A stretch of DNA of 64,000 bases from positions 62,001 to 126,000 of the forward strand of contig NZ_AUMH01000002.1 in the NCBI RefSeq assembly GCF_000430585.1. Reading direction: 5' to 3'. Both the position numbers and the translations under genes were made by a program. This stretch comes from Alicyclobacillus herbarius DSM 13609 (lineage in GTDB: Bacteria > Bacillota > Bacilli > Alicyclobacillales > Alicyclobacillaceae). Position 1 is the stretch's first letter; every line of letters begins with the position of its first letter. Positions 28,192 to 57,844 of this stretch are shown in pieces. Below the pieces are notes generated by a model that saw only the letters and a program-made list of their open reading frames with translations, was not told where the DNA came from and searched no databases.

Positions 28192-30030
28192 ATGGCAGCA
28201 GAAGGGCGTGCACACATCCCACCCTCTGAGGGTGGGACGGAGAAACAGGACCGCAGTCATTCTTACCAGGCGTCGTTGGCGGAGAACACTTCCGGTGCCT
28301 GCGCTGGTCAGGACGAGCATGGGCTGGACAACTGCGAAAGAACCCAGTTGCACAAGGATTTCCAGTATGCGCAATCGACCATCAAGCGGATTGGAGAGTT
28401 GGCGGGCATCGCCATCTTCTCTTATGACCGAATCCACAAGCGGCAGATCTTTGGCACCGGAACCAAGCGGGTGTACGGATACAGTGAACAGGAGTTTGCG
28501 GACGATCCGGATCTATGGCGAAAGGTAATTCATCCAGACGACCGAGCGTTGGTCGAAGGGTCGTTACCGAGCAACGAGCCGCTTAAGTTGGAGTACCGCA
28601 TCTTCCGCAAGGATGGAGAGCTGCGCTGGCTGGAGGTGAGTCTTTATCCGCGCCTTGGCGAGGGGAATACCGTGACGGTCGTGGACGGCATTGCCGTCGA
28701 CATCACCGAACGCAAGCTGTATCAGGAACGCCTGCAGGCGATGGCCTACACCGATTTGTTGACCGCCTTGCCCAACCAGACCAAGTTCAATGAAGATTTG
28801 AACGCGGCGATTACCCATGCCGCTCAGGGTGGAAGACCGTTTGGCGTCTTGTTTATCGACTTTGACGGCTTTAAAGGCGTCAACGATACCTTCGGTCATG
28901 AATTTGGCGACAAGGTTTTGCAGCGTATCGGCTCCTTGCTCCACGAGTGTGTCTCCGAGTCCGTGCAAGTCTACCGAATGGGCGGGGACGAGTTCACCGC
29001 GATTGTCCGTGGCATTGCGACAGAGCAGGACGTGGTCACTCTGGCCGAGGACATCTCGCACAAGTTTCGCTCACCGTTGTGGCTGGGCAATCAAGAGCTA
29101 ATGAATATTCACTGCAGTATCGGAGCTGCGGTCTATCCTCAGCACGGTCAGGACGCGGACACACTGCTGCGGCATGCGGACGTGGCCATGTATTTTGCCA
29201 AAGACACGGGCGGACAGAAATCTGTGCTGTATTCGCCCAAGCTGGCTGGCCGGACGAAGGGCAGTCTATTCTTGCACGATGCCCTGGTGGAGGCTCTGCA
29301 GAGACAGGAATTTAAGCTTTACTTCCAACCCCAGATTGATGCGGCGACGCAGCAGCTGCTGGGAGCGGAGGCTCTGATTCGCTGGCAGTCCCCCACGCAA
29401 GGCCTGGTTTCCCCGGACGGTTTTATTCCCTTCGCCGAACAATCGGGACTGATTTGGGAGATTGGCAATTGGGCGCTTGCGGCCGCGTGTCGGCAAAACC
29501 AGGCCTGGCAGACACAGGGCCTGCCACCCATTCGGGTCTCGGTCAACGTCTCGATGGTGCAGCTTGAACACCCCGGCTTTCTGGACCTGGTGCAGCGGGT
29601 GCTGGAGCAGACCGGTCTAAACCCGCGCTGGCTGGAATTGGAGATTACAGAGTCGGCCTTGGTCAATCGCCTGGAACACGCGGCAGAGGTCATTGAACAG
29701 GTGCGGGGGCTTGGAGTCTCGGTGGCGGTCGACGATTTCGGGGTCGGCTATTCCTCCCTGCAGTACTTGGCGCACATGCACGCCGATACCTTGAAAATCG
29801 ACAAGTCGTTCATCTACAGCCTGGAGAGCAACCCAAAAGTCATCCATATTGTCTCTGCTATTGTCCAGATGGCCCATGCGCTCGGGATGCGCGTGGTGGC
29901 AGAGGGTGTGGAGCGGTCCGAGCAGCTGCGGCTGCTTAAGAACGTCGGGTGCGATGAGGCTCAGGGGTACCTGTTTTGTCCGCCCGAGCCAGAGGCAGAG
30001 TTTGCAGCGTTCTGTCGCAAGCCGAAGTGA
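28192..30030 (+). CDS. PAS-GGDEF-EAL protein (c-di-GMP turnover)
   Basis: 612-residue cytoplasmic protein. A PAS fold with PAC motif (about 75-180; DDPDLWRKVIHPDDRALVE, DITERK) is followed by a GGDEF domain (about 185-345) with intact active-site GGDEF in YRMGGDEFTAIV. An EAL domain follows (about 360-605) with intact GAEALIRW, ELEITESAL, DDFGVGYSSL and KIDKSF motifs. It could make and break cyclic di-GMP, with PAS as sensor. I see no signal peptide or membrane helix. I chose ATG 28192 after GAGGGGG; TTG 28171 is upstream. Whether synthesis or hydrolysis dominates cannot be told. Confidence 0.92.
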   Translation: MAAEGRAHIPPSEGGTEKQDRSHSYQASLAENTSGACAGQDEHGLDNCERTQLHKDFQYAQSTIKRIGELAGIAIFSYDRIHKRQIFGTGTKRVYGYSEQEFADDPDLWRKVIHPDDRALVEGSLPSNEPLKLEYRIFRKDGELRWLEVSLYPRLGEGNTVTVVDGIAVDITERKLYQERLQAMAYTDLLTALPNQTKFNEDLNAAITHAAQGGRPFGVLFIDFDGFKGVNDTFGHEFGDKVLQRIGSLLHECVSESVQVYRMGGDEFTAIVRGIATEQDVVTLAEDISHKFRSPLWLGNQELMNIHCSIGAAVYPQHGQDADTLLRHADVAMYFAKDTGGQKSVLYSPKLAGRTKGSLFLHDALVEALQRQEFKLYFQPQIDAATQQLLGAEALIRWQSPTQGLVSPDGFIPFAEQSGLIWEIGNWALAAACRQNQAWQTQGLPPIRVSVNVSMVQLEHPGFLDLVQRVLEQTGLNPRWLELEITESALVNRLEHAAEVIEQVRGLGVSVAVDDFGVGYSSLQYLAHMHADTLKIDKSFIYSLESNPKVIHIVSAIVQMAHALGMRVVAEGVERSEQLRLLKNVGCDEAQGYLFCPPEPEAEFAAFCRKPK

Positions 30031-49199: not shown

Positions 49200-49289
49200 G
49201 TGATTGCGCTTTGTAGAATTTTGTCGTATGATGTCAATAAATCGTCAAAGCTTTTGCACGGAAGAAGACGAAAACACATAATGTGGAAT

Positions 49290-49372
49290 GTGCTCAGGGC
49301 AAACCAGTGGAAACGCTGGGACGCAAAGCCACGGGTCTACGGGCGATATCGTCTAGGACAGCCGGGTTGCCA
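49290..49372 (+). promoter_or_regulatory. c-di-GMP-I (GEMM-I) riboswitch upstream of the EAL gene
   Basis: The aptamer signature is nearly complete. GGGCAAACC is followed by a hairpin capped with GGAAAC, then GGGACGCAAAGCCACGGGTCT, a variable hairpin (CGGGCGATATCGTCTAG), and GACAGCCGGGTTGCC, which pairs back with the 5' GGCAA. A G precedes CAAACC, which is the base associated with c-di-GMP rather than cGAMP preference. A terminator (49401-49428) follows at once, so control is probably by transcription termination. Confidence 0.93.
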
Positions 49373-49400
49373 CGAAATGTCACGATATTGGTCACGTGGG

Positions 49401-49428
49401 AGGGACGACCCTGAGGGTCGTCCTTTTT
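49401..49428 (+). terminator. Terminator in the riboswitch expression platform
   Basis: GGACGACCC and GGGTCGTCC form a 9-bp stem with a TGA loop, followed by five T residues. It lies between the c-di-GMP-I aptamer and the EAL gene start at 49446, so it is the likely expression platform. Whether ligand binding turns it on or off cannot be decided from inspection. Confidence 0.85.
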
Positions 49429-49445
49429 GTAATATGGGGTGAGGC

Positions 49446-50438
49446 ATGGTGAATCAACAGAGAAAACCAAACGCTGAGGGGAAAGATAGAAGCTCCCCAA
49501 ACACACGGGGTATGCATCTGTCAACCGCGTTTGTCTCATCCATGATACGCGAAGTTACAGCAGAGCATATCCAGCAAATCCTCGCTGAAGGGACGTTGTT
49601 CAGCTATTATCAACCCATTATCAATCACCAGGGGTCTTACGTGTTCGCGCACGAGGCGCTCAGCCGTCCCTGGTTGAACACGCCCAGTGTGATGATGGCT
49701 CCAGATTGTTGGTTCTATACTGCGTACAAGTGTGGCCGGTCGTTGGAGGCAGACTTGTTGGCTATCCAATCAGCGCTCAAACATCGTGTGTGTCCGGGGG
49801 ACGTCCGGACAGGTGGATACCTGTTCGTGAATGTCCTTCCCACGACTTTAGCTGAACCGTGTTTTCTCGTCGAATTGGAATCCCTCCTACTCACCTACGA
49901 CCAATCCCCGAACGGTCTCGTATTCGAAGTCACAGAAAACATTGCCTATGATACGAAGCGTCTGGCAGAACAGCTTAAGCCCCTTCGGTCTTGGGGCATC
50001 CATATTGCTCTGGACGACGTTGGAGCAGGGTATGCCGACCTGCGGGCGATGGTGGATTTGGAACCGGACTTCATCAAGCTGGACCGGTCGCTGGTGCAGG
50101 GTGTGGCAACATCCAGGAACCGCCAGCGGCTGTTGGAGTCATTCGTACAATTTATGACCTCTGGGACTGCTGTGATTGTGGAAGGGATTGAAACCCTGGA
50201 CGACCTACTGGCCGCTCAAGAGGCGGGGGTCCATCTCAGCCAAGGGTATTACTGGGCTCCTCCGTTTCCGGACGAAGTCCTAAAAAAGTTGTTCGAGCGC
50301 GTCGAGGGGGTGCGCGAGCCACCGACGAGACTCGGACAGGAACGTGAAGAACAGGTGGATGACATGACGGTTCCAGTTGAGAGTCAACATTGGGACCGAT
50401 TATTGGTCTTGTACCAACGAGCCATGTGTCGGCTTTGA
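49446..50438 (+). CDS. EAL domain c-di-GMP phosphodiesterase
   Basis: 330-residue soluble protein with a single EAL domain (about 35-285). Catalytic and metal residues look intact: EAL in AHEALSRP, Asn in FVNVLP, Glu in FEVTEN, the Asp pair in ALDDVGAGYADL, Lys in IKLDRSL, Glu in VEGIET and Gln in LSQGYYWAPP. It should hydrolyse c-di-GMP. Its own messenger carries a c-di-GMP riboswitch, so a feedback loop is likely. It heads a unit with the FapA-like gene and a receiver gene. A 45-residue polar C-terminal tail has no known domain. Confidence 0.92.
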   Translation: MVNQQRKPNAEGKDRSSPNTRGMHLSTAFVSSMIREVTAEHIQQILAEGTLFSYYQPIINHQGSYVFAHEALSRPWLNTPSVMMAPDCWFYTAYKCGRSLEADLLAIQSALKHRVCPGDVRTGGYLFVNVLPTTLAEPCFLVELESLLLTYDQSPNGLVFEVTENIAYDTKRLAEQLKPLRSWGIHIALDDVGAGYADLRAMVDLEPDFIKLDRSLVQGVATSRNRQRLLESFVQFMTSGTAVIVEGIETLDDLLAAQEAGVHLSQGYYWAPPFPDEVLKKLFERVEGVREPPTRLGQEREEQVDDMTVPVESQHWDRLLVLYQRAMCRL

Positions 50439-50498
50439 AATCATCCTACGAATTACGTCGCCACATTGCCACGATGTTCATAGGATTTGGAGGAGCAT

Positions 50499-50984
50499 AT
50501 GGAGATCAAGACACTTTCCCGAAAGATCTTCCTCAGTAGATTGAGAAGACGGAAGGCACCGGATGTATCGGAAACAACACGCAAGCCGGTTCCCCATATG
50601 CCCCCACCTGTGAACGGGACAGCTTGGGTTGTTGCCGGTAAAATCCACGTCTCGGACCCCAAGAACTACGGAGCCTATGCGACGATTGTGGTTCCGGATG
50701 ATTCGTGCCTGAAGGTGACGATAGACGGCGAGCCGGTTGTCGGGGAAGTGGTGGTGAGTGAGTCACACAATATCCAAGTGGAACTCATCGCGCGGAAGCC
50801 GTCGGTAGCCTATGAGCTGTTTGTCTCGGACGATAAGCTCAGCGTTTCCGTAAAGGCCACGGTTGTGCTCGGCATGATGCCTGCGTTGAAGGATAGCGAT
50901 CCAAGGAGAGGTTGGTACTCCAGGTCGAGAAAACGATGTATCCGCCGGAAGAGACTTCTCCGAGTACGATATTGGAGCTGTTGA
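50499..50984 (+). CDS. FapA/DUF342-like protein, N-terminal fragment
   Basis: The first part of a FapA (DUF342) family protein. A basic start and proline-rich linker precede VNGTAWVVAGKIHVSD, VPDDSCLKVTIDGEPVVGEVVV and ELFVSDDKLSVSVKATVVLG, the beta-rich N-terminal domain of this family. After about residue 138 the frame runs into an Arg-rich, random-looking tail and stops at 50984, while the family sequence continues in another frame from about 50900. A one-base frameshift in the overlap (50897-50984) would fuse both parts into a normal protein of about 600 residues. ATG 50499 follows GGAGGAG. Confidence 0.75.
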   Translation: MEIKTLSRKIFLSRLRRRKAPDVSETTRKPVPHMPPPVNGTAWVVAGKIHVSDPKNYGAYATIVVPDDSCLKVTIDGEPVVGEVVVSESHNIQVELIARKPSVAYELFVSDDKLSVSVKATVVLGMMPALKDSDPRRGWYSRSRKRCIRRKRLLRVRYWSC

Positions 50985-52303
50985 ATGCCAACGGATTTAA
51001 GGGAGCTATTGATTCGCAAGGCCTACGGCGCATTTGTCAGGCGAAGGAAACCACCCAAGAAGTCGTTTTACGAGGCATCCGCCCCCAGTGTGCAGGCCGT
51101 GACAAGTGGAAATTCCCGCACTTCCCGACGGAAGCGGATGATTTCTTACGGACCAAACGTCCGGGGTGTGTTCCTATTGGGACCACGGTGGGGGTCGTGG
51201 AGCGTGGGCACGGCAACATCCCGGGGAAGAATGTTTATGGACAGGAAATCGTTGTCGAACCGAAGGAGCCGTCCTTGTCGCTGGGAGATGGAGTCGTCCT
51301 GGTCAAGAACCATCTTGTCGCGTCACGGAATGGAAGGATTTGTGTCACGAAAGACCACATTGATGTCGTTCCCGAGATGACCATCGCACACGATGTGAGT
51401 GGAAAAGACGGCGCCATCCGCTTCGACGGAAATGTAATTGTGAGAGGAAATGTGGAAAACGGCGCTTTCATCAAAGCGACAGGGTATATTATTGTTTATG
51501 GATCCGTACGTGATTCAGAGGTCATGGGAGAACGGGGCGTGATTATCACAGGCGAGGCCAACCGAGCGAAAGTGGTTGGCGGGTATCAACAGATGATTTA
51601 CGGAACCCTTGCCGGTCTGATTGAAGCCATGTTGATTGAATTAAACCGGTTTCGGGACGAATATCTCATTATGGTCGGACATGCGTTGCGACGTTCAGAC
51701 GCCCATGTTATCATACCGAAAATTCCAGCATTACTTTTAGAGAAACGGCATGACGAGTTGACGCGGCTGTTGACTACGTTTGTCACCAAATACGCCGATG
51801 ACCTGGCGCAGGTGGATGTGTCTTATCGTATGCTGAAAGATTCGATTGTTAGGAAATGGAAAGGAGAACAGAGTGACTCGATATCCCAGAGAGAAATCGA
51901 CTCCTTGATGAGTAACATGGAGAAGTATAGCCAAAAGATTGCTTCGATACAGGCGCGTAAGTCGTTCGTGCGCGTTGCCACCTGCCAATCGAGTACCCTT
52001 CACAGCACGGGGAACATCCTGGTGCAGAAGCGAAGTGTGTCGAGCGCGATAGAGAGTGGGAATACCCTATCTATCCTAGGGTCCATGAAAGGTGGATTCG
52101 TTGTCGCCCAGAAATCCGCATACATTGGACAGATTGGAACACCGGCCGCCACAGAAGGGAGCGTCTTAGTCGTCAACCCGGATGGATTTATTCGAGGCCG
52201 ACTGGCGTACGAGAACACCTTGTTGCAGGTAGGGCAGAGGAGAGTTCGGTTGTATCATACGATGTGGGATTTCCGGTTTGGAGGTGAACAAAAAGATGGT
52301 TAA
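50912..52303 (+). CDS. FapA/DUF342-like protein, main part (frameshifted from 50499 gene)
   Basis: 463 residues carrying the body of a FapA-type protein: the STILELLNANGFKGAID segment, then a beta-helix of glycine-rich turns (FDGNVIVRGNVENGAFIKATGYIIVYGSVRDSEV). A long helical coiled-coil insert follows (about 230-350) and then a second beta-helix part (STGNILVQKRSVSSAIESGNTLSILG). The family name comes from a flagellar-assembly context in some species; function is poorly known. TTG 50912 is only a few bases from AAGGAG, too close for good initiation, so expression probably depends on correction of the frameshift or reinitiation. Its end overlaps the receiver gene. Confidence 0.75.
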   Translation: MVLQVEKTMYPPEETSPSTILELLNANGFKGAIDSQGLRRICQAKETTQEVVLRGIRPQCAGRDKWKFPHFPTEADDFLRTKRPGCVPIGTTVGVVERGHGNIPGKNVYGQEIVVEPKEPSLSLGDGVVLVKNHLVASRNGRICVTKDHIDVVPEMTIAHDVSGKDGAIRFDGNVIVRGNVENGAFIKATGYIIVYGSVRDSEVMGERGVIITGEANRAKVVGGYQQMIYGTLAGLIEAMLIELNRFRDEYLIMVGHALRRSDAHVIIPKIPALLLEKRHDELTRLLTTFVTKYADDLAQVDVSYRMLKDSIVRKWKGEQSDSISQREIDSLMSNMEKYSQKIASIQARKSFVRVATCQSSTLHSTGNILVQKRSVSSAIESGNTLSILGSMKGGFVVAQKSAYIGQIGTPAATEGSVLVVNPDGFIRGRLAYENTLLQVGQRRVRLYHTMWDFRFGGEQKDG

Positions 52304-52733
52304 AGTCTTACTTGTTGACGACTTCGATGAAACGTTGGAATCGCTGGAACTGGTATATGGCTTTCATCCAGACGTCCAGGTCGTCGGACGCGCACATAAC
52401 GCGGAGGAAATGTGGGACATCCTGGGGCAACAGCAAGTCGATTACGTTTCATTAGATATCCAATTGGGAGCCGAAAGCGGCCTTGAGCTGTGTCGACAAA
52501 TCCGAAAAAAATACCCTAAAATCTTTGTTGTCATGTGCTCCGTCGAGGCATCTGACCGAATGCAAAAATCGGCCATAGATGCAGGAGCCTCGTACTTTCT
52601 CGCCAAGCCGATTGGCATGAATGAGATTAACCATGCCGTCTCCAGTTGCTTGAAATGGCATGGCGGGGAAGATTCATTGACCGAGCAGGAGGCGGACGAT
52701 TTATTGCGGCTCCTAGACAGTGAGTTCAAGTAA
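52296..52733 (+). CDS. Stand-alone CheY-like response regulator receiver
   Basis: 145-residue receiver domain with no visible output domain. VLLVDDFDETLESL gives the acidic pair (about residues 9-10), YVSLDIQLGAESGLELC the phospho-accepting Asp (about residue 54), MCSVEASDRMQ the Ser/Thr position and FLAKPIG the conserved Lys. ATG 52296 follows GGAGGTG and overlaps the end of the FapA-like gene by eight bases, so it is translationally coupled. A histidine kinase is encoded nearby on the other strand (54260-54931), but that kinase type usually pairs with LuxR-type regulators. Confidence 0.9.
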   Translation: MVKVLLVDDFDETLESLELVYGFHPDVQVVGRAHNAEEMWDILGQQQVDYVSLDIQLGAESGLELCRQIRKKYPKIFVVMCSVEASDRMQKSAIDAGASYFLAKPIGMNEINHAVSSCLKWHGGEDSLTEQEADDLLRLLDSEFK

Positions 52734-52792
52734 CAGAAACAAAGCCACAGCACAGCCTGTCGGACTGTACCCGGTTCGTCAACGGTGTGCAG

Positions 52793-54253
52793 TTAGTCAA
52801 CGGCATGCATCCGAACAAACGCCTGAACCACGTCCGGATCAAACGCTATGCGGCGATTTTCAATCAGCTCGTTCAGAGCCGAAAAGTGGTCTTTTCCGCC
52901 AAGCACAATTTGGGTACAATAGTGGTCGACTACAGCCAACACACGGGCCAGGTAATCAATGTCGTTGGCTGTTTTTCCGTTTGGGAACCCGGAGCCGTCA
53001 TAACATTCATGATGATCTTGGATAATGTTCGTGATTTCACAGGACAGACCTAAGGTTTGCGCCATTTGCACACTCAACGAAGGGTGCAATTTATATTTCT
53101 CGAACGCCTGCTCGGAACGTTGTGGATTCAGGACGACCTCGTTTTCCAACGCCGTCCACCCATAGTCGGCGAATCTGGATGCTAGCACCAAGTCTCTCCG
53201 CTGCGGCTCCGGCAACTCTAATTCTTCGGCCATGAGTTCCACATAATGTGCCCGCAAGTCCAGCAATTTCATCACTTGCTTGTGAATCAGCTCTTGTGAA
53301 TTGATAGCATCCAAGCACTGCAGAAAGTGTTGTATCTCATCGAGCGAGATGTCCCACCCCTCATCATCGGCGGGCCCAGGTGGGGGATTATCCTCCCAGC
53401 GGCTCACTTCCGATTCGATATCCTGCCACTGCCGCCACATCGCCAGTTGGCCAAACAGAACCTGGGCCTTTTCGTATAGCCGGAAGGCCAGCTCAGACTC
53501 GCCCAAGCGGATGCTAATATTTGCGAGCAAGTGACAGAGACGGGCAATGTATTCTTTTTCGTAGGCGATAAAGGACGACCATATGATGCTCAGGGCCTGT
53601 TTTGCGTACTCGATACTCTGGGCCATCTTGCCTTGGAGCAGGTATAATCGGCCTAGGTCCGATAGAATGGACATGTCGTTCCCCTGGCTCAATTCGTAGG
53701 CCTTCAGAAGGTAGGATTCGGACGTGCTGTAATCACCTATTTCTAGATAAGCAAGTCCTAGGTTGTTATTCAGTACTACATCGTTTCGATGGATGTTATG
53801 CTGTCGATATGCGAGAAAGCTCTCTTGGCTGCTCACGATAGCCTGCATGTAAAACCCGTTGATGCCTTCAATCCCAGATAAATTTAACCATAAGAGCCCC
53901 TTGGTCGCCGGAGAGACAACATCTACATATTTTTTTAACTCGCTCAAGATGCGGTAGCAGGTATCGAATTCGGACAGACGGTGATAAGCGGCGGCCAGAA
54001 CTGTGTTACGCTTGACCCATATGTCGCGGTCCGCAGCGTGCTCAATTGCTTTGGTAAAATACACGACAGCCTGCTGAAAGCTGGCCGTATGATAATACAA
54101 CACACCGAGTTCATGGTACATCGCTGCCAGCTGTTCGGCATCACAATCAGCAGGCACGTTTTCTATGCATCGACGCAGCTCGTCAATCGCAGCCTGAAAA
54201 AGCCCCTTCAATCGCAGTCGCTTGGCTGTATCCAGGGTGGCCCCAATACTCAT
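52793..54253 (-). CDS. TPR protein with degenerate HD-GYP domain
   Basis: 486 residues. Six or seven tetratricopeptide-like repeats occupy about 1-290 (for example ELGVLYYHTASFQQAVVYFTKAIEHA and NNLGLAYLEIGDYSTSESYLLKAYEL, read in parts). A C-terminal HD-GYP-like domain (about 310-486) keeps the second motif HHECYDGSGFPNG and the LARVLAVVDHY helix. The first motif, usually HDIGK, appears as FADYGW, so a key metal ligand pair is missing. It may sense or bind c-di-GMP without cleaving it. It lies six bases after the histidine kinase gene on the same strand, so they probably share a transcript. Confidence 0.8.
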   Translation of the reverse strand: MSIGATLDTAKRLRLKGLFQAAIDELRRCIENVPADCDAEQLAAMYHELGVLYYHTASFQQAVVYFTKAIEHAADRDIWVKRNTVLAAAYHRLSEFDTCYRILSELKKYVDVVSPATKGLLWLNLSGIEGINGFYMQAIVSSQESFLAYRQHNIHRNDVVLNNNLGLAYLEIGDYSTSESYLLKAYELSQGNDMSILSDLGRLYLLQGKMAQSIEYAKQALSIIWSSFIAYEKEYIARLCHLLANISIRLGESELAFRLYEKAQVLFGQLAMWRQWQDIESEVSRWEDNPPPGPADDEGWDISLDEIQHFLQCLDAINSQELIHKQVMKLLDLRAHYVELMAEELELPEPQRRDLVLASRFADYGWTALENEVVLNPQRSEQAFEKYKLHPSLSVQMAQTLGLSCEITNIIQDHHECYDGSGFPNGKTANDIDYLARVLAVVDHYCTQIVLGGKDHFSALNELIENRRIAFDPDVVQAFVRMHAVD

Positions 54254-54259
54254 TTATGT

Positions 54260-54931
54260 TCACCCGTTGTATACTGGAACTCGAATGACAAATGTGCTTC
54301 CCTGGCCAATGACCGAATCAATGTCCAGTTGTCCTCCCAGGTAGGCTGCGCGTTCTTTCATCCCGATGAGTCCGTAGTGCCCGGGCGGAATGTAGTTCGG
54401 GTCAAAGCCCACCCCATCATCCTGGATGGTGATGACAAGCTCGGCTTCATGATGTGCAAACGCAACCTTGATGGTTTTGGCCTTTGCGTGTTTTTTGATG
54501 TTGTTCAGGACTTCTTGGATAAGTCGATAGAGCGCCACCTGTTTCGCCGGGGCAATCCCTTTGGAAACCAACCCATCTTCGACTTCAAAGAGCACAGGGA
54601 CGTTCCAGTTTTTTTCGTATTGCACGCACAATTCCCGAACCGCCTCAATGAGACCGACTTCGTCGACCGCAATCGGGCGCAAGTCGTAGATCAAGGCACG
54701 GATTTCATGGGTGACATCCGCCACCCGTTTGTGAAGCTGGCTTACGAGAGCCTTGGCCATCTCTGGATTCGATTCAATCATGGCATTCAGGACATCCAAC
54801 TTCATGCTGATGTTGGTGAGCGCCTGGGCCGGGCCGTCGTGCAAATCTCTCGCGATTCGCCGGCGCTCTTCCTCCAACAGGCGGATGCCATGGTCCGTTG
54901 CGTCGAATACCGGCAAGACGGGTTTCTCCAT
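54260..54931 (-). CDS. Soluble histidine kinase, HisKA_3 (NarL/DegS type)
   Basis: 223-residue kinase core without a sensor domain. The phospho-accepting His is in ERRRIARDLHDGPAQALTN (about residue 32), the DHp helices follow, and the ATPase has LYRLIQEVLNNIKKHAKA (N box), DDGVGFDP (G1) and GHYGLIGMKERAAYLGG (G2). There is no membrane helix, so it acts in the cytoplasm and must receive its signal from a partner, perhaps the TPR protein encoded next. No LuxR/NarL-type regulator gene is in the window. The ATG is preceded by GGAAATCCGCGGATGG-like sequence without a strong site. Confidence 0.9.
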   Translation of the reverse strand: MEKPVLPVFDATDHGIRLLEEERRRIARDLHDGPAQALTNISMKLDVLNAMIESNPEMAKALVSQLHKRVADVTHEIRALIYDLRPIAVDEVGLIEAVRELCVQYEKNWNVPVLFEVEDGLVSKGIAPAKQVALYRLIQEVLNNIKKHAKAKTIKVAFAHHEAELVITIQDDGVGFDPNYIPPGHYGLIGMKERAAYLGGQLDIDSVIGQGSTFVIRVPVYNG

Positions 54932-55126
54932 CCGCGGATTTCCTCCGTATCTATTGTCTACAAATGTCTACAGAAAAAATACAGAGAAGCGCGACGAAGT
55001 CGCGCTTAACTTTTTTCTGGAGCGAGATTCCTAGTCTGTTGCGAGCTGCAATGATCGTATCACAGCATCAAGCTAAATTAGAATGTCAAATCAAAACATG
55101 CCCGAGGAGACCAATCGCTCGGCGGT

Positions 55127-55345
55127 TCATTCCACAACGAGTCTAAATCCATCATGCGTGAACTTGTTGACGGTGCCCGTATCGGAACGATTGGCTTGCC
55201 CCTGTGTGCTGCCAGGGTTCGATACGGCTGCAACCGGCTGTCCGGTCGTGCTGCCACTTGTGCGGATGACGTCTGCAAATGCGGGGGCGATACTGGCGCC
55301 AAGAATCGCGGCGGCGGTGATGGAGGTGACCAACAACTTCTTCAT
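55127..55345 (-). CDS. Small secreted protein under c-di-GMP riboswitch control
   Basis: 72-residue protein with a textbook signal peptide: MKKLL, hydrophobic VTSITAAAILGASIAP and a likely cut after AFA (residue 24). The mature part of about 48 residues is polar and rich in Ser, Thr, Gly, Gln and Asn, with no Cys. I recognise no family. AAGGGAGAG precedes the ATG by about eight bases. A c-di-GMP-I riboswitch ends about 30 bases upstream. Extracellular proteins under such riboswitches in other Firmicutes are often adhesins or matrix factors; that role is only an inference here. Confidence 0.8.
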   Translation of the reverse strand: MKKLLVTSITAAAILGASIAPAFADVIRTSGSTTGQPVAAVSNPGSTQGQANRSDTGTVNKFTHDGFRLVVE

Positions 55346-55373
55346 TCGACATCTCTCCCTTTACAGTGGGTTC

Positions 55374-55452
55374 TGGCAGCCCGGCTATCCTAGGCTAGTT
55401 GCCCGTAGACCCGTGGCTTTGCGCCCCTGTCTTTCGACAGGTTTGCCTTTAA
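55374..55452 (-). promoter_or_regulatory. c-di-GMP-I (GEMM-I) riboswitch upstream of the small secreted protein gene
   Basis: Read on the minus strand: AAAGGCAAACC, a hairpin capped by CGAAAG, GGGGCGCAAAGCCACGGGTCT, a variable hairpin (CGGGCAACTAGCCTAGG) and ATAGCCGGGCTGCC. These are the same elements as in the riboswitch at 49290. A G precedes CAAACC. The ribosome binding site starts about 15 bases after the aptamer and no terminator is visible, so control may be at translation. Confidence 0.92.
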
Positions 55453-55488
55453 AAATTGGCCAGACAGCCAATAGAGGCTGTTGGTTAG

Positions 55489-55517
55489 ATTATACCAATG
55501 TTCGACATAGATTGTAA
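55489..55517 (-). promoter_or_regulatory. Promoter of the riboswitch/secreted protein transcript
   Basis: On the minus strand, TTACAA (55517-55512) is followed after 17 bases by a perfect TATAAT (55494-55489) with an upstream TGG, an extended -10. Transcription should start near 55482, about 30 bases before the aptamer. A small hairpin (ACAGCC...GGCTGT) lies in that leader. The remaining bases 55518-55723 show nothing I can name. Confidence 0.75.
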
Positions 55518-55723
55518 GTCTCTCTGTGTAAAATTTCTGTAGGGAGAATAAAGGCTTCCTTGAAAACCCTCACTAAAAACCTCGCATCGCAAATCTCGTT
55601 TGCGTTCAACTTCGTCCCGGGTGCGCGGTTCATTCGGATTGCCCGTGTTTCGCCCGCTCCTTGTACGGTTGGCCGGCACGCTGTCGTCTCCCATATCCGC
55701 GCCGGCCTCGCACGATTACGCGC

Positions 55724-57826
<2,103 letters not shown>

Positions 57827-57844
57827 TGTTTGGTTGTCGCTTTC

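Follow-up and report, generated by a model that had tools for sequence, protein, structure and literature searches.

Why should a short island in one bacterial genome be bounded by two riboswitches of the same class, and what might join the genes that lie between them? We asked this of Alicyclobacillus herbarius DSM 13609, in a stretch of 64,000 nucleotides (contig NZ_AUMH01000002.1, positions 62,001 to 126,000; hereafter the window) in which two riboswitches of cyclic diguanylate (c-di-GMP) class I (c-di-GMP-I) face each other across two operons. One operon encodes an EAL phosphodiesterase, a FapA-family protein and a receiver; the other encodes a small protein with a signal-like N-terminus, a histidine kinase (HK) and a protein that joins TPR repeats to a degenerate HD-GYP domain (TPR-HD). 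The reading we favor, with a probability of roughly 0.6, is that c-di-GMP gates a peptide system of the Rap/Phr kind in this island, next to a phosphodiesterase operon under riboswitch control.

In the mechanism we propose, the island would belong to a c-di-GMP circuit that is conserved among Alicyclobacillus-type bacteria. c-di-GMP would free a terminator and turn the EAL-FapA-receiver operon off, and in the second operon the riboswitch platform would pair with the Shine-Dalgarno (SD) sequence of the small precursor. The precursor would be exported and processed, with a C-terminal peptide of about 8 to 12 residues serving as the signal. After re-import, for which RRNPP systems use an oligopeptide permease, this peptide would bind to the TPR repeats of TPR-HD in the cytosol, as in Rap/Phr, and the inactive HD-GYP half together with the soluble kinase would relay the state of the receptor, perhaps by phosphotransfer to the receiver. 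Of this scheme, the sequences themselves supply the aptamers, the genes and their conservation, the covarying platform, the degenerate HD motif and the joint change of peptide end and TPR domain; ligand response and its direction, secretion, processing, re-import, binding and phosphotransfer are inferred.

A putative peptide precursor and its candidate TPR receptor

We searched 61 genomes from 31 genera, A. herbarius included, with the TPR-HD, FapA and small-protein sequences, retrieved 31 regions, annotated their riboswitches with Rfam and mapped homologues onto them. The TPR-HD search gave 29 loci down to an E value of 4e-38, the window counted in; 27 of these could be assessed as cassettes, since in G028:C55 and G016 the contig starts inside the kinase gene. 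In 25 of the 27, an aptamer lies directly 5' of an open reading frame (ORF) of 44 to 73 amino acids (aa) that is followed by a TPR-HD gene; the cassettes of G018 and G003 are without an aptamer. The kinase gene stands between peptide and TPR-HD genes in 22 of the 25. Because HK is absent from L116, L137 and L138 while peptide and TPR-HD remain, we regard TPR-HD, rather than HK, as the constant partner of the peptide. A separate scan of named genomes returned 26 loci, mostly the same places, and added A. acidiphilus and Sulfobacillus-type loci, so that relatives of the peptide operon are also found in Sulfobacillus-type genomes. Five loci of that scan (L145, L162, L163, L165 and L168) also carry the aptamer, and two (L164 and the distant L170) have no c-di-GMP-I match.

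The small ORF is tied closely to its riboswitch. It begins 25 to 32 nucleotides (nt) 3' of the aptamer in all 31 leaders examined, and a signal-like ORF of 40 to 90 aa within 15 to 40 nt of the aptamer is present in 29/31 cassette leaders versus 2/29 other top-scoring c-di-GMP-I loci, counted with orientation respected and with L028, whose orientation could not be resolved, excluded. The two positives among these controls are L013, which is itself a cassette, and L003, an orphan peptide. By the simple hydropathy rule of our own used for these calls, the N-terminus is signal-like in 29 of 32 peptides. Conversely, all 13 matches to the small protein at E <= 1e-3 in the 61 genomes sit in aptamer-TPR-HD cassettes. 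The small secreted protein that an earlier note on this DNA placed behind the second aptamer is present as a 72-aa ORF with a signal-like N-terminus. That note took it for an extracellular output; a predicted product with a signal sequence it is, but it is better read as a signaling peptide with TPR-HD as its constant partner.

The precursors can be divided into a signal sequence, a middle of highly variable length and a C-terminal motif, for example HDGFRLVVE, PDGMVLIW, PDTLVRPIWD, DSTLPIVVE, SHGWREIW or NGPVWYWDD in different cassettes. We had considered that the C-terminus diverges faster than the rest (19% identity versus 43% for the signal, counted without offsets), but a recount that allows offsets of up to 2 residues did not confirm this: among 30 pairs whose receptors are 45 to 60% identical, the last ten residues are 49% and the signal sequences 40% identical.

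If the C-terminus is a ligand of the TPR domain, the two should have changed together. We compared them in the 22 of 32 peptides that have both HK and TPR-HD in the relatives set (L113, L116, L137, L138, L145, L162, L163, L164, L165 and L168 being omitted), with the C-terminus scored offset-tolerantly throughout; the outcome does not change when the signal is scored likewise, or when the last 8 or 12 residues are taken. Similarity of the C-terminal decamer follows TPR identity (Mantel r 0.67), and it continues to do so in partial tests given HK (r 0.52) or given the HD domain (r 0.52), with 0/1000 permutations reaching either value. Given TPR, by comparison, its correlation with HK or HD is r -0.02 and -0.11. 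The association also holds among 12 loci of which no two exceed 45% TPR identity (r 0.50 given HK, 0.58 given HD). In these 12 loci the signal sequence behaves in the opposite way, following HK (0.63) and HD (0.55) and not TPR (0.04 and -0.09). We take this opposition between the two ends of one short protein as a sign of a peptide and its receptor.

The predicted structure of TPR-HD is in keeping with such a role. Its AlphaFold2 model has a mean predicted local distance difference test (pLDDT) score of 93.2, and superposition of its TPR half gives Z 21.8 and 21.7 with pheromone-bound Rap (8rtc and 4gyo), 21.6 with NprR-NprX (4gpk), 20.6 with RapF-PhrF (4i9c) and 18.8 with AimR (5xyb). By eye the protein has no membrane segment, and as modeled it has the cytosolic multi-TPR superhelix expected of an RRNPP receptor. 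Among its homologues N124 is invariant and N164 nearly so; a passage of PMC3601957 describes a strictly conserved asparagine of the RRNPP superfamily that holds the main chain of the peptide.

Residues ~300 to 486 share the HD-GYP fold with the solved proteins DvhD in its c-di-GMP-bound form (9rbz, Z 22.5), the PmGH-type 4mcw (Z 20.2) and Bd1817, and differ from them in being fused to a TPR superhelix and in having lost the HD histidine. In the alignment of 29 proteins (26 once the near-duplicates L125, L136 and L138 are removed by hand), this position is occupied by A in 25, C in 2, S in 1 and M in 1, within a strongly conserved ..DYGLTA motif. The aspartate is kept in 29/29, and the two residues of the later HH of the domain in 28 and 29 of 29. 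With the HD histidine lost, no hydrolysis is expected, and TPR-HD is therefore probably not a phosphodiesterase; its HD half possibly binds a ligand or a partner. The kinase and the TPR/HD-GYP-like protein that the earlier note saw between the riboswitches are both confirmed by Pfam, with the correction that the HD-GYP motif is degenerate.

Three further observations concern the small ORF and its surroundings. At L003 (214-480), a c-di-GMP-I aptamer precedes the orphan gene of a secreted 46-aa peptide, and in the 1.8 kb read there, without a search aimed at them, neither a kinase nor a TPR-HD gene was noticed. At L002, an aptamer lies 154 nt before an ORF with a start like that of a HisKA_3 kinase, with no peptide ORF by the rule used. 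In the window, a hairpin with T-rich flanking tails (54987-55007) lies between the peptide and kinase genes; it is possible that it acts as a bidirectional or partial terminator that sets the ratio of peptide to receptor.

Leader architectures and the direction of control

We scanned the window with the Rfam 15 covariance models at gathering thresholds and compared its proteins with Pfam (Table 1). The earlier note had claimed two near-complete aptamers and had named low scores in an RF01051 search as a result that would speak against them; both lie above the Rfam cut-offs, and the second, for which a GGC sub-model is the best match, also scores 83.4 bits with RF01051. The GGC of both window aptamers places a G at what we take to be the equivalent of Vc2 G20, an assignment made from the usual numbering and from a passage on selectivity. 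By eye, the peptide riboswitches of L120, L130, L134, L162, L163, L165 and L168 have an A or a C at this position. PMC9262584, in a passage on this class, treats it as a selectivity factor between cyclic dinucleotides; a G there would favor c-di-GMP.

The leader of the peptide gene contains a compact expression platform. The typical leader continues directly from a GCC-type aptamer end as CGG-A-ACCCAA-CCG-NNAGAA-GGGAG-start, in which CGG and CCG form a stem (S1). This stem is paired in 84/84 cells of 28 distinct rows, and it is maintained through replacement: CAG/CUG in the window, and CUG/CAG and CGU/ACG elsewhere, with one of the three pairs invariant. None of 500 shuffles reaches the covariation score of S1 and 8/500 reach its number of doubly changed pairs, and controls in which the stem is slid pair at no more than 50%. 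Of 31 leaders, 27 have an anti-SD element in the S1 loop that pairs with the SD core; a script found 26 of these, and L130, for which it preferred another helix, was added by eye. The four leaders of Sulfobacillus type are without this pairing. Here too the partners change together (CCC with GGG, UCCU with AGGA): swapping loops among leaders reaches the observed sum in 2/2000 cases, and shuffling letters in 0/500. S1 interlocks with the anti-SD pairing to give an H-type pseudoknot. Because S1 sits where P1 presumably would be, next to the ligand site, we lean toward c-di-GMP stabilizing S1 and closing the SD. The platform sets this leader apart from c-di-GMP-I riboswitches such as Cd1: the aptamer family is shared, and the EAL operon shares their terminator architecture as well, whereas the peptide leader joins the 3' end of the aptamer to an SD-pairing element with pseudoknot topology.

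The EAL leader is built differently. The terminator that the earlier note placed behind the first aptamer is confirmed as a strong intrinsic terminator (GGACGACCC-TGA-GGGTCGTCC, then TTTTT), with a free energy of -19.6 for the extended stem and P 0.96 in the whole leader; it was absent from the output of a scan for consensus terminators. By one rule 5/14 EAL/FapA leaders contain a terminator, and by another 7/17. In L116 the 5' arm of the terminator complements the 3' strand of the aptamer (CGGGTTGCC with GGCAACCTG), to a degree that 2/1000 arm shuffles reach. The corresponding complementarity is suggestive in L124 (75/1000 shuffles) and L125 (77/1000) but not in L121 (220/1000). A passage of PMC9262584 describes Cd1 of C. 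difficile, of the same class, as a transcriptional OFF switch. The arm complementarity of L116 is the usual OFF-switch arrangement, as in Cd1, and our OFF call for the EAL operon therefore leans on L116. By this logic c-di-GMP would most likely switch the operon off by freeing the terminator, in the window perhaps as well. Should the window be OFF too, a high level of c-di-GMP would repress its own phosphodiesterase, which would make the loop bistable and not homeostatic. The earlier proposal that the signal adjusts its own breakdown suggests negative feedback, which is doubtful, the terminator logic, clear in L116 only, pointing to positive feedback. The two different mechanisms it proposed match two kinds of expression platform in the leaders, with a terminator in one and an SD-pairing element in place of a terminator in the other.

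The genes behind the terminator are those the earlier note named, each with its Pfam domain. The EAL, N, E, DD, K, E and Q positions of the window EAL protein align with those of solved EAL proteins, in which we presume their roles, and by its sequence the protein has what is expected of an EAL phosphodiesterase. The FapA-like gene belongs to its Pfam family but is split into two frames. FapA is also broken in a relative, G026 (L111, 2838-5877), and 13 other loci retain single frames of 558 to 639 aa. We considered programmed frameshifting and rejected it, as no slippery heptamer was found by eye and G026 FapA is also broken; the break more likely stems from a mutation or from an error in the assembly.

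Pairing of the operons, competing explanations and known systems

A FapA gene lies near the cassette in at least 15 of the 29 loci (in L125 as a fragment only), a lower bound in that some regions are short or ended by a contig, and in 12 of these 15 the FapA operon has a riboswitch of its own. Their relative orientation differs: the operons converge in the window, L115, L116, L117 and L126, run in tandem in L111 and L114, and diverge in L121, L124, L125 and L129. The pairing of the operons is thus often conserved, and their inward orientation is local: the inward-facing pair of riboswitches that was said to bound the island holds for the window and not as a conserved trait. In L114 (2483-9870), three c-di-GMP-I riboswitches follow one another, before a 1355-aa EAL protein, FapA-receiver and the peptide cassette.

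Since the class is common in this group (59/61 genomes, with up to 20 per genome), the two riboswitches might be independent, ordinary c-di-GMP-I regulators that are neighbors by chance and share no circuit. The 14 of 29 TPR-HD loci in which no FapA was seen in the fetched region, some of them short or cut by a contig end, fit that account; the riboswitch found on 12 of 15 FapA operons does not, as it recurs through three arrangements and the neighborhood outlives rearrangement, and we consider chance adjacency improbable. Alternatively, the small protein could be a structural or surface product, of matrix, pilus or envelope, made under the control of c-di-GMP, with the kinase and TPR-HD co-operonic and not sensing it. 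A mature region of ~45 residues is conserved in the long-type precursors, more than a minimal pheromone needs, and PMC4933901 has a passage on an adhesin that is controlled by a c-di-GMP riboswitch in Bacillus thuringiensis. However, the short types (L128, L162 and L168) keep a mature part of only ~20 residues, the peptide C-terminus and the TPR domain evolve together, and peptide and TPR-HD persist where HK is absent, which leaves a structural role unlikely, if still worth bearing in mind. That the switches respond mainly to 3',3'-cGAMP and not to c-di-GMP is suggested by the A, assigned by eye, at the Vc2 G20 equivalent in the peptide riboswitches of L120, L134, L163, L165 and L168, a position described as selectivity determining in the passage of PMC9262584. 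Both window aptamers have G there and the neighboring enzyme is an EAL protein, and we regard this explanation as very improbable.

Several results weigh against a Rap/Phr-like peptide system gated by c-di-GMP. Where receptors are more than 60% identical (13 pairs, 6 of them within four near-identical Sulfobacillus-type loci), identity is 91% for the last ten residues and 83% for the signal; without the pairs inside those four loci it is 83% and 70% (7 pairs), in both cases a modest excess. Correlation with TPR extends to the middle of the peptide in the full set (r 0.37 given HK, 0/1000), although with the 12 loci this falls to r 0.17 (155/1000). On ranks, the correlation of the C-terminus with HK given TPR is not zero (0.24, 13/1000), and the Mantel loci are related by descent, so that their permutation counts are not strict probabilities. 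The TPR fold is not diagnostic, for the eukaryotic TPRs of LGN and APPBP2 score Z ~23 and tie with or exceed Rap. L164 has the peptide with no c-di-GMP-I match, and in L131 and L132, which have HK and TPR-HD, no aptamer and no signal-like peptide were seen. As to the leaders, the window antiterminator GGGUUG/CGACCC is at chance level (315/1000 arm shuffles), and nested folding with versus without a locked aptamer lowers SD accessibility in 19/31 leaders (means 0.38 and 0.35), which gives no direction; folding of this kind cannot represent a pseudoknot. Finally, the FapA frame of the window is broken.

Among known systems, the peptide operon comes closest to Rap/Phr and the RRNPP group (RapF-PhrF, NprR-NprX, PlcR-PapR, AimR). 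It shares with them a TPR protein whose neighbor is a short precursor carrying a signal sequence, a C-terminal peptide that varies with the TPR domain, and a TPR model that superposes on pheromone-bound Rap and NprR. The effector of an RRNPP protein is a helix-turn-helix domain or a Rap-type three-helix bundle; TPR-HD has in that place neither a DNA-binding domain nor the Rap bundle, but a C-terminal HD_5/HD-GYP domain. The precursor gene lies 5' of the receptor gene, usually with the kinase between them, and the operon starts with a c-di-GMP riboswitch. In addition, none of the six peptides tested has a significant Phr family in Pfam; the Phr match of one relative's peptide is confined to the signal region and not significant (E 0.074). 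Our verdict is that what the earlier note observed is confirmed and that its interpretation is half right. In its working the island would resemble an RRNPP system, but we would not class it as one, given its different second domain and a peptide binding and import that are putative.

At just short of even odds, we tentatively propose a new class of peptide quorum sensing in which a c-di-GMP riboswitch gates the translation of a pheromone precursor and the receptor is a TPR-dead-HD-GYP protein, with a minimal kinase, a single-domain receiver, and a paired operon whose riboswitch-controlled phosphodiesterase has a poly-G counterpart in relatives from at least 11 of the 31 sampled genera. We found no description of this system in the open-licence literature searched. 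If the proposal is correct, a private, single-cell c-di-GMP signal would directly set the production of a public peptide signal; cells would broadcast the peptide according to a c-di-GMP state that is partly heritable, and its receptor would carry the remnant of a c-di-GMP enzyme. Two fields of signaling that are usually studied apart would thereby be joined, and this in Bacillota that are acidophilic and thermophilic. Through its natural variants (a ligand-selecting base that is G, A or C, differing platforms and poly-G phosphodiesterase genes), the family also lends itself to studying how riboswitch circuits evolve.

Poly-G tracts, feature coordinates and neighboring elements

Runs of at least 14 G are present in 27 of the 61 genomes, and we inspected one such locus per genome (L171-L197). 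In 15 of the 27 (L171, L172, L176, L178-L180, L182, L185-L188, L192, L193, L195 and L196) the tract is followed directly by an EAL frame, mostly in the context …ACCCCTC-Gn-TATAA…; in a sixteenth, L175, the contig ends in the same context. Among the remaining 11, some runs lie at the ends of contigs and some in low-complexity sequence, and two of these genomes have an EAL tract elsewhere (G011 at L121, G001 at L080). With L175 set aside, EAL tracts occur in 11 of the 31 sampled genera (g1, g2, g3, g4, g7, g8, g10, g12, g14, g16 and g18). They are 14 to 22 long and lie in the 5' coding region, some in frame with the start and some not: an in-frame start is found 5' of the tract in seven loci and in none of L171, L172, L186, L193 and L196. 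An aptamer core lies 154 to 220 nt 5' of the tract in 11/16 loci; L176, L180 and L195 are cut by the end of the locus, and L186 and L193 have no core by the pattern used. These features point to probable slipped-strand phase variation of the relatives' phosphodiesterases, with both states frozen in the assemblies. The nearest case that we found described, in PMC9286219, is PdcB, a c-di-GMP phosphodiesterase of C. difficile that is phase-variable by DNA inversion 5' of its gene. A heritable on/off state of such an enzyme is what we propose for the relatives too; the means differ, DNA inversion there and a poly-G tract inside the reading frame here. The trait is not the window's: where the tract might be expected, the window shows just GGGG (49507-49510), if the two places do correspond.

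Table 1. Features of the island, in window coordinates
Feature	Position	Strand	Support
Promoter-like site TTTGCA-18-CATAAT, weak, 5' of first aptamer	49253..49282	+	9/12 matches; shuffles mean 0.3 sites
c-di-GMP-I aptamer (first)	49288..49374	+	RF01051, 83.9 bits, cut-off 35, E 4.5e-15
Intrinsic terminator	49403..49428	+	hairpin 49403-49423, T run 49424-49428
EAL phosphodiesterase, 330 aa, catalytic motifs present	49446..50438	+	Pfam EAL, E 4.9e-45
FapA-family gene, two frames, break near 50900	50487..52303	+	Pfam FapA
Single-domain response regulator receiver	52278..52733	+	Pfam
TPR + degenerate HD-GYP protein, 486 aa, proposed peptide receptor	52793..54253	-	Pfam TPR + HD_5
HisKA_3/HATPase histidine kinase, 223 aa, ~20 residues before HisKA_3	54260..54931	-	Pfam
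Precursor, 72 aa, signal-like N-terminus, C-terminus THDGFRLVVE	55127..55345	-	no Pfam match
Expression platform	55357..55375	-	S1 stem 55375-55373 with 55366-55364; anti-SD 55370-55368 with SD core 55359-55357
c-di-GMP-I aptamer (second)	55371..55456	-	best sub-model RF03167 (c-di-GMP-I-GGC), 72.5 bits, cut-off 59, E 3.1e-15
Promoter-like site CTTACA-18-TATAAT, TG before second hexamer, 5' of second aptamer	55489..55518	-	10/12 matches; shuffles mean 0.6 sites

The genome of A. herbarius has four c-di-GMP-I aptamers and five GGDEF matches; its full EAL domains number three, and EAL fragments are present as well. By eye, the third aptamer precedes a long ORF with a PAS-like start and the fourth an ORF resembling a chemoreceptor. 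A GGDEF match in an 878-aa frame lies ~2 kb beyond the third aptamer, and may belong to the same frame as the PAS-like start. Just 5' of the same aptamer, EAL fragments in separate short frames (G000:C17, 64806-65149) are probably the remains of a decayed EAL gene. The strongest EAL match of the genome is a GGDEF-EAL protein within the window (28744-29985, plus strand; G000:C2:90744-91985). Adjoining the island, a thiamine pyrophosphate (TPP) riboswitch (57722-57832, minus strand) precedes thiC (55724-57544) and is the sole other Rfam match above cut-off in the window.

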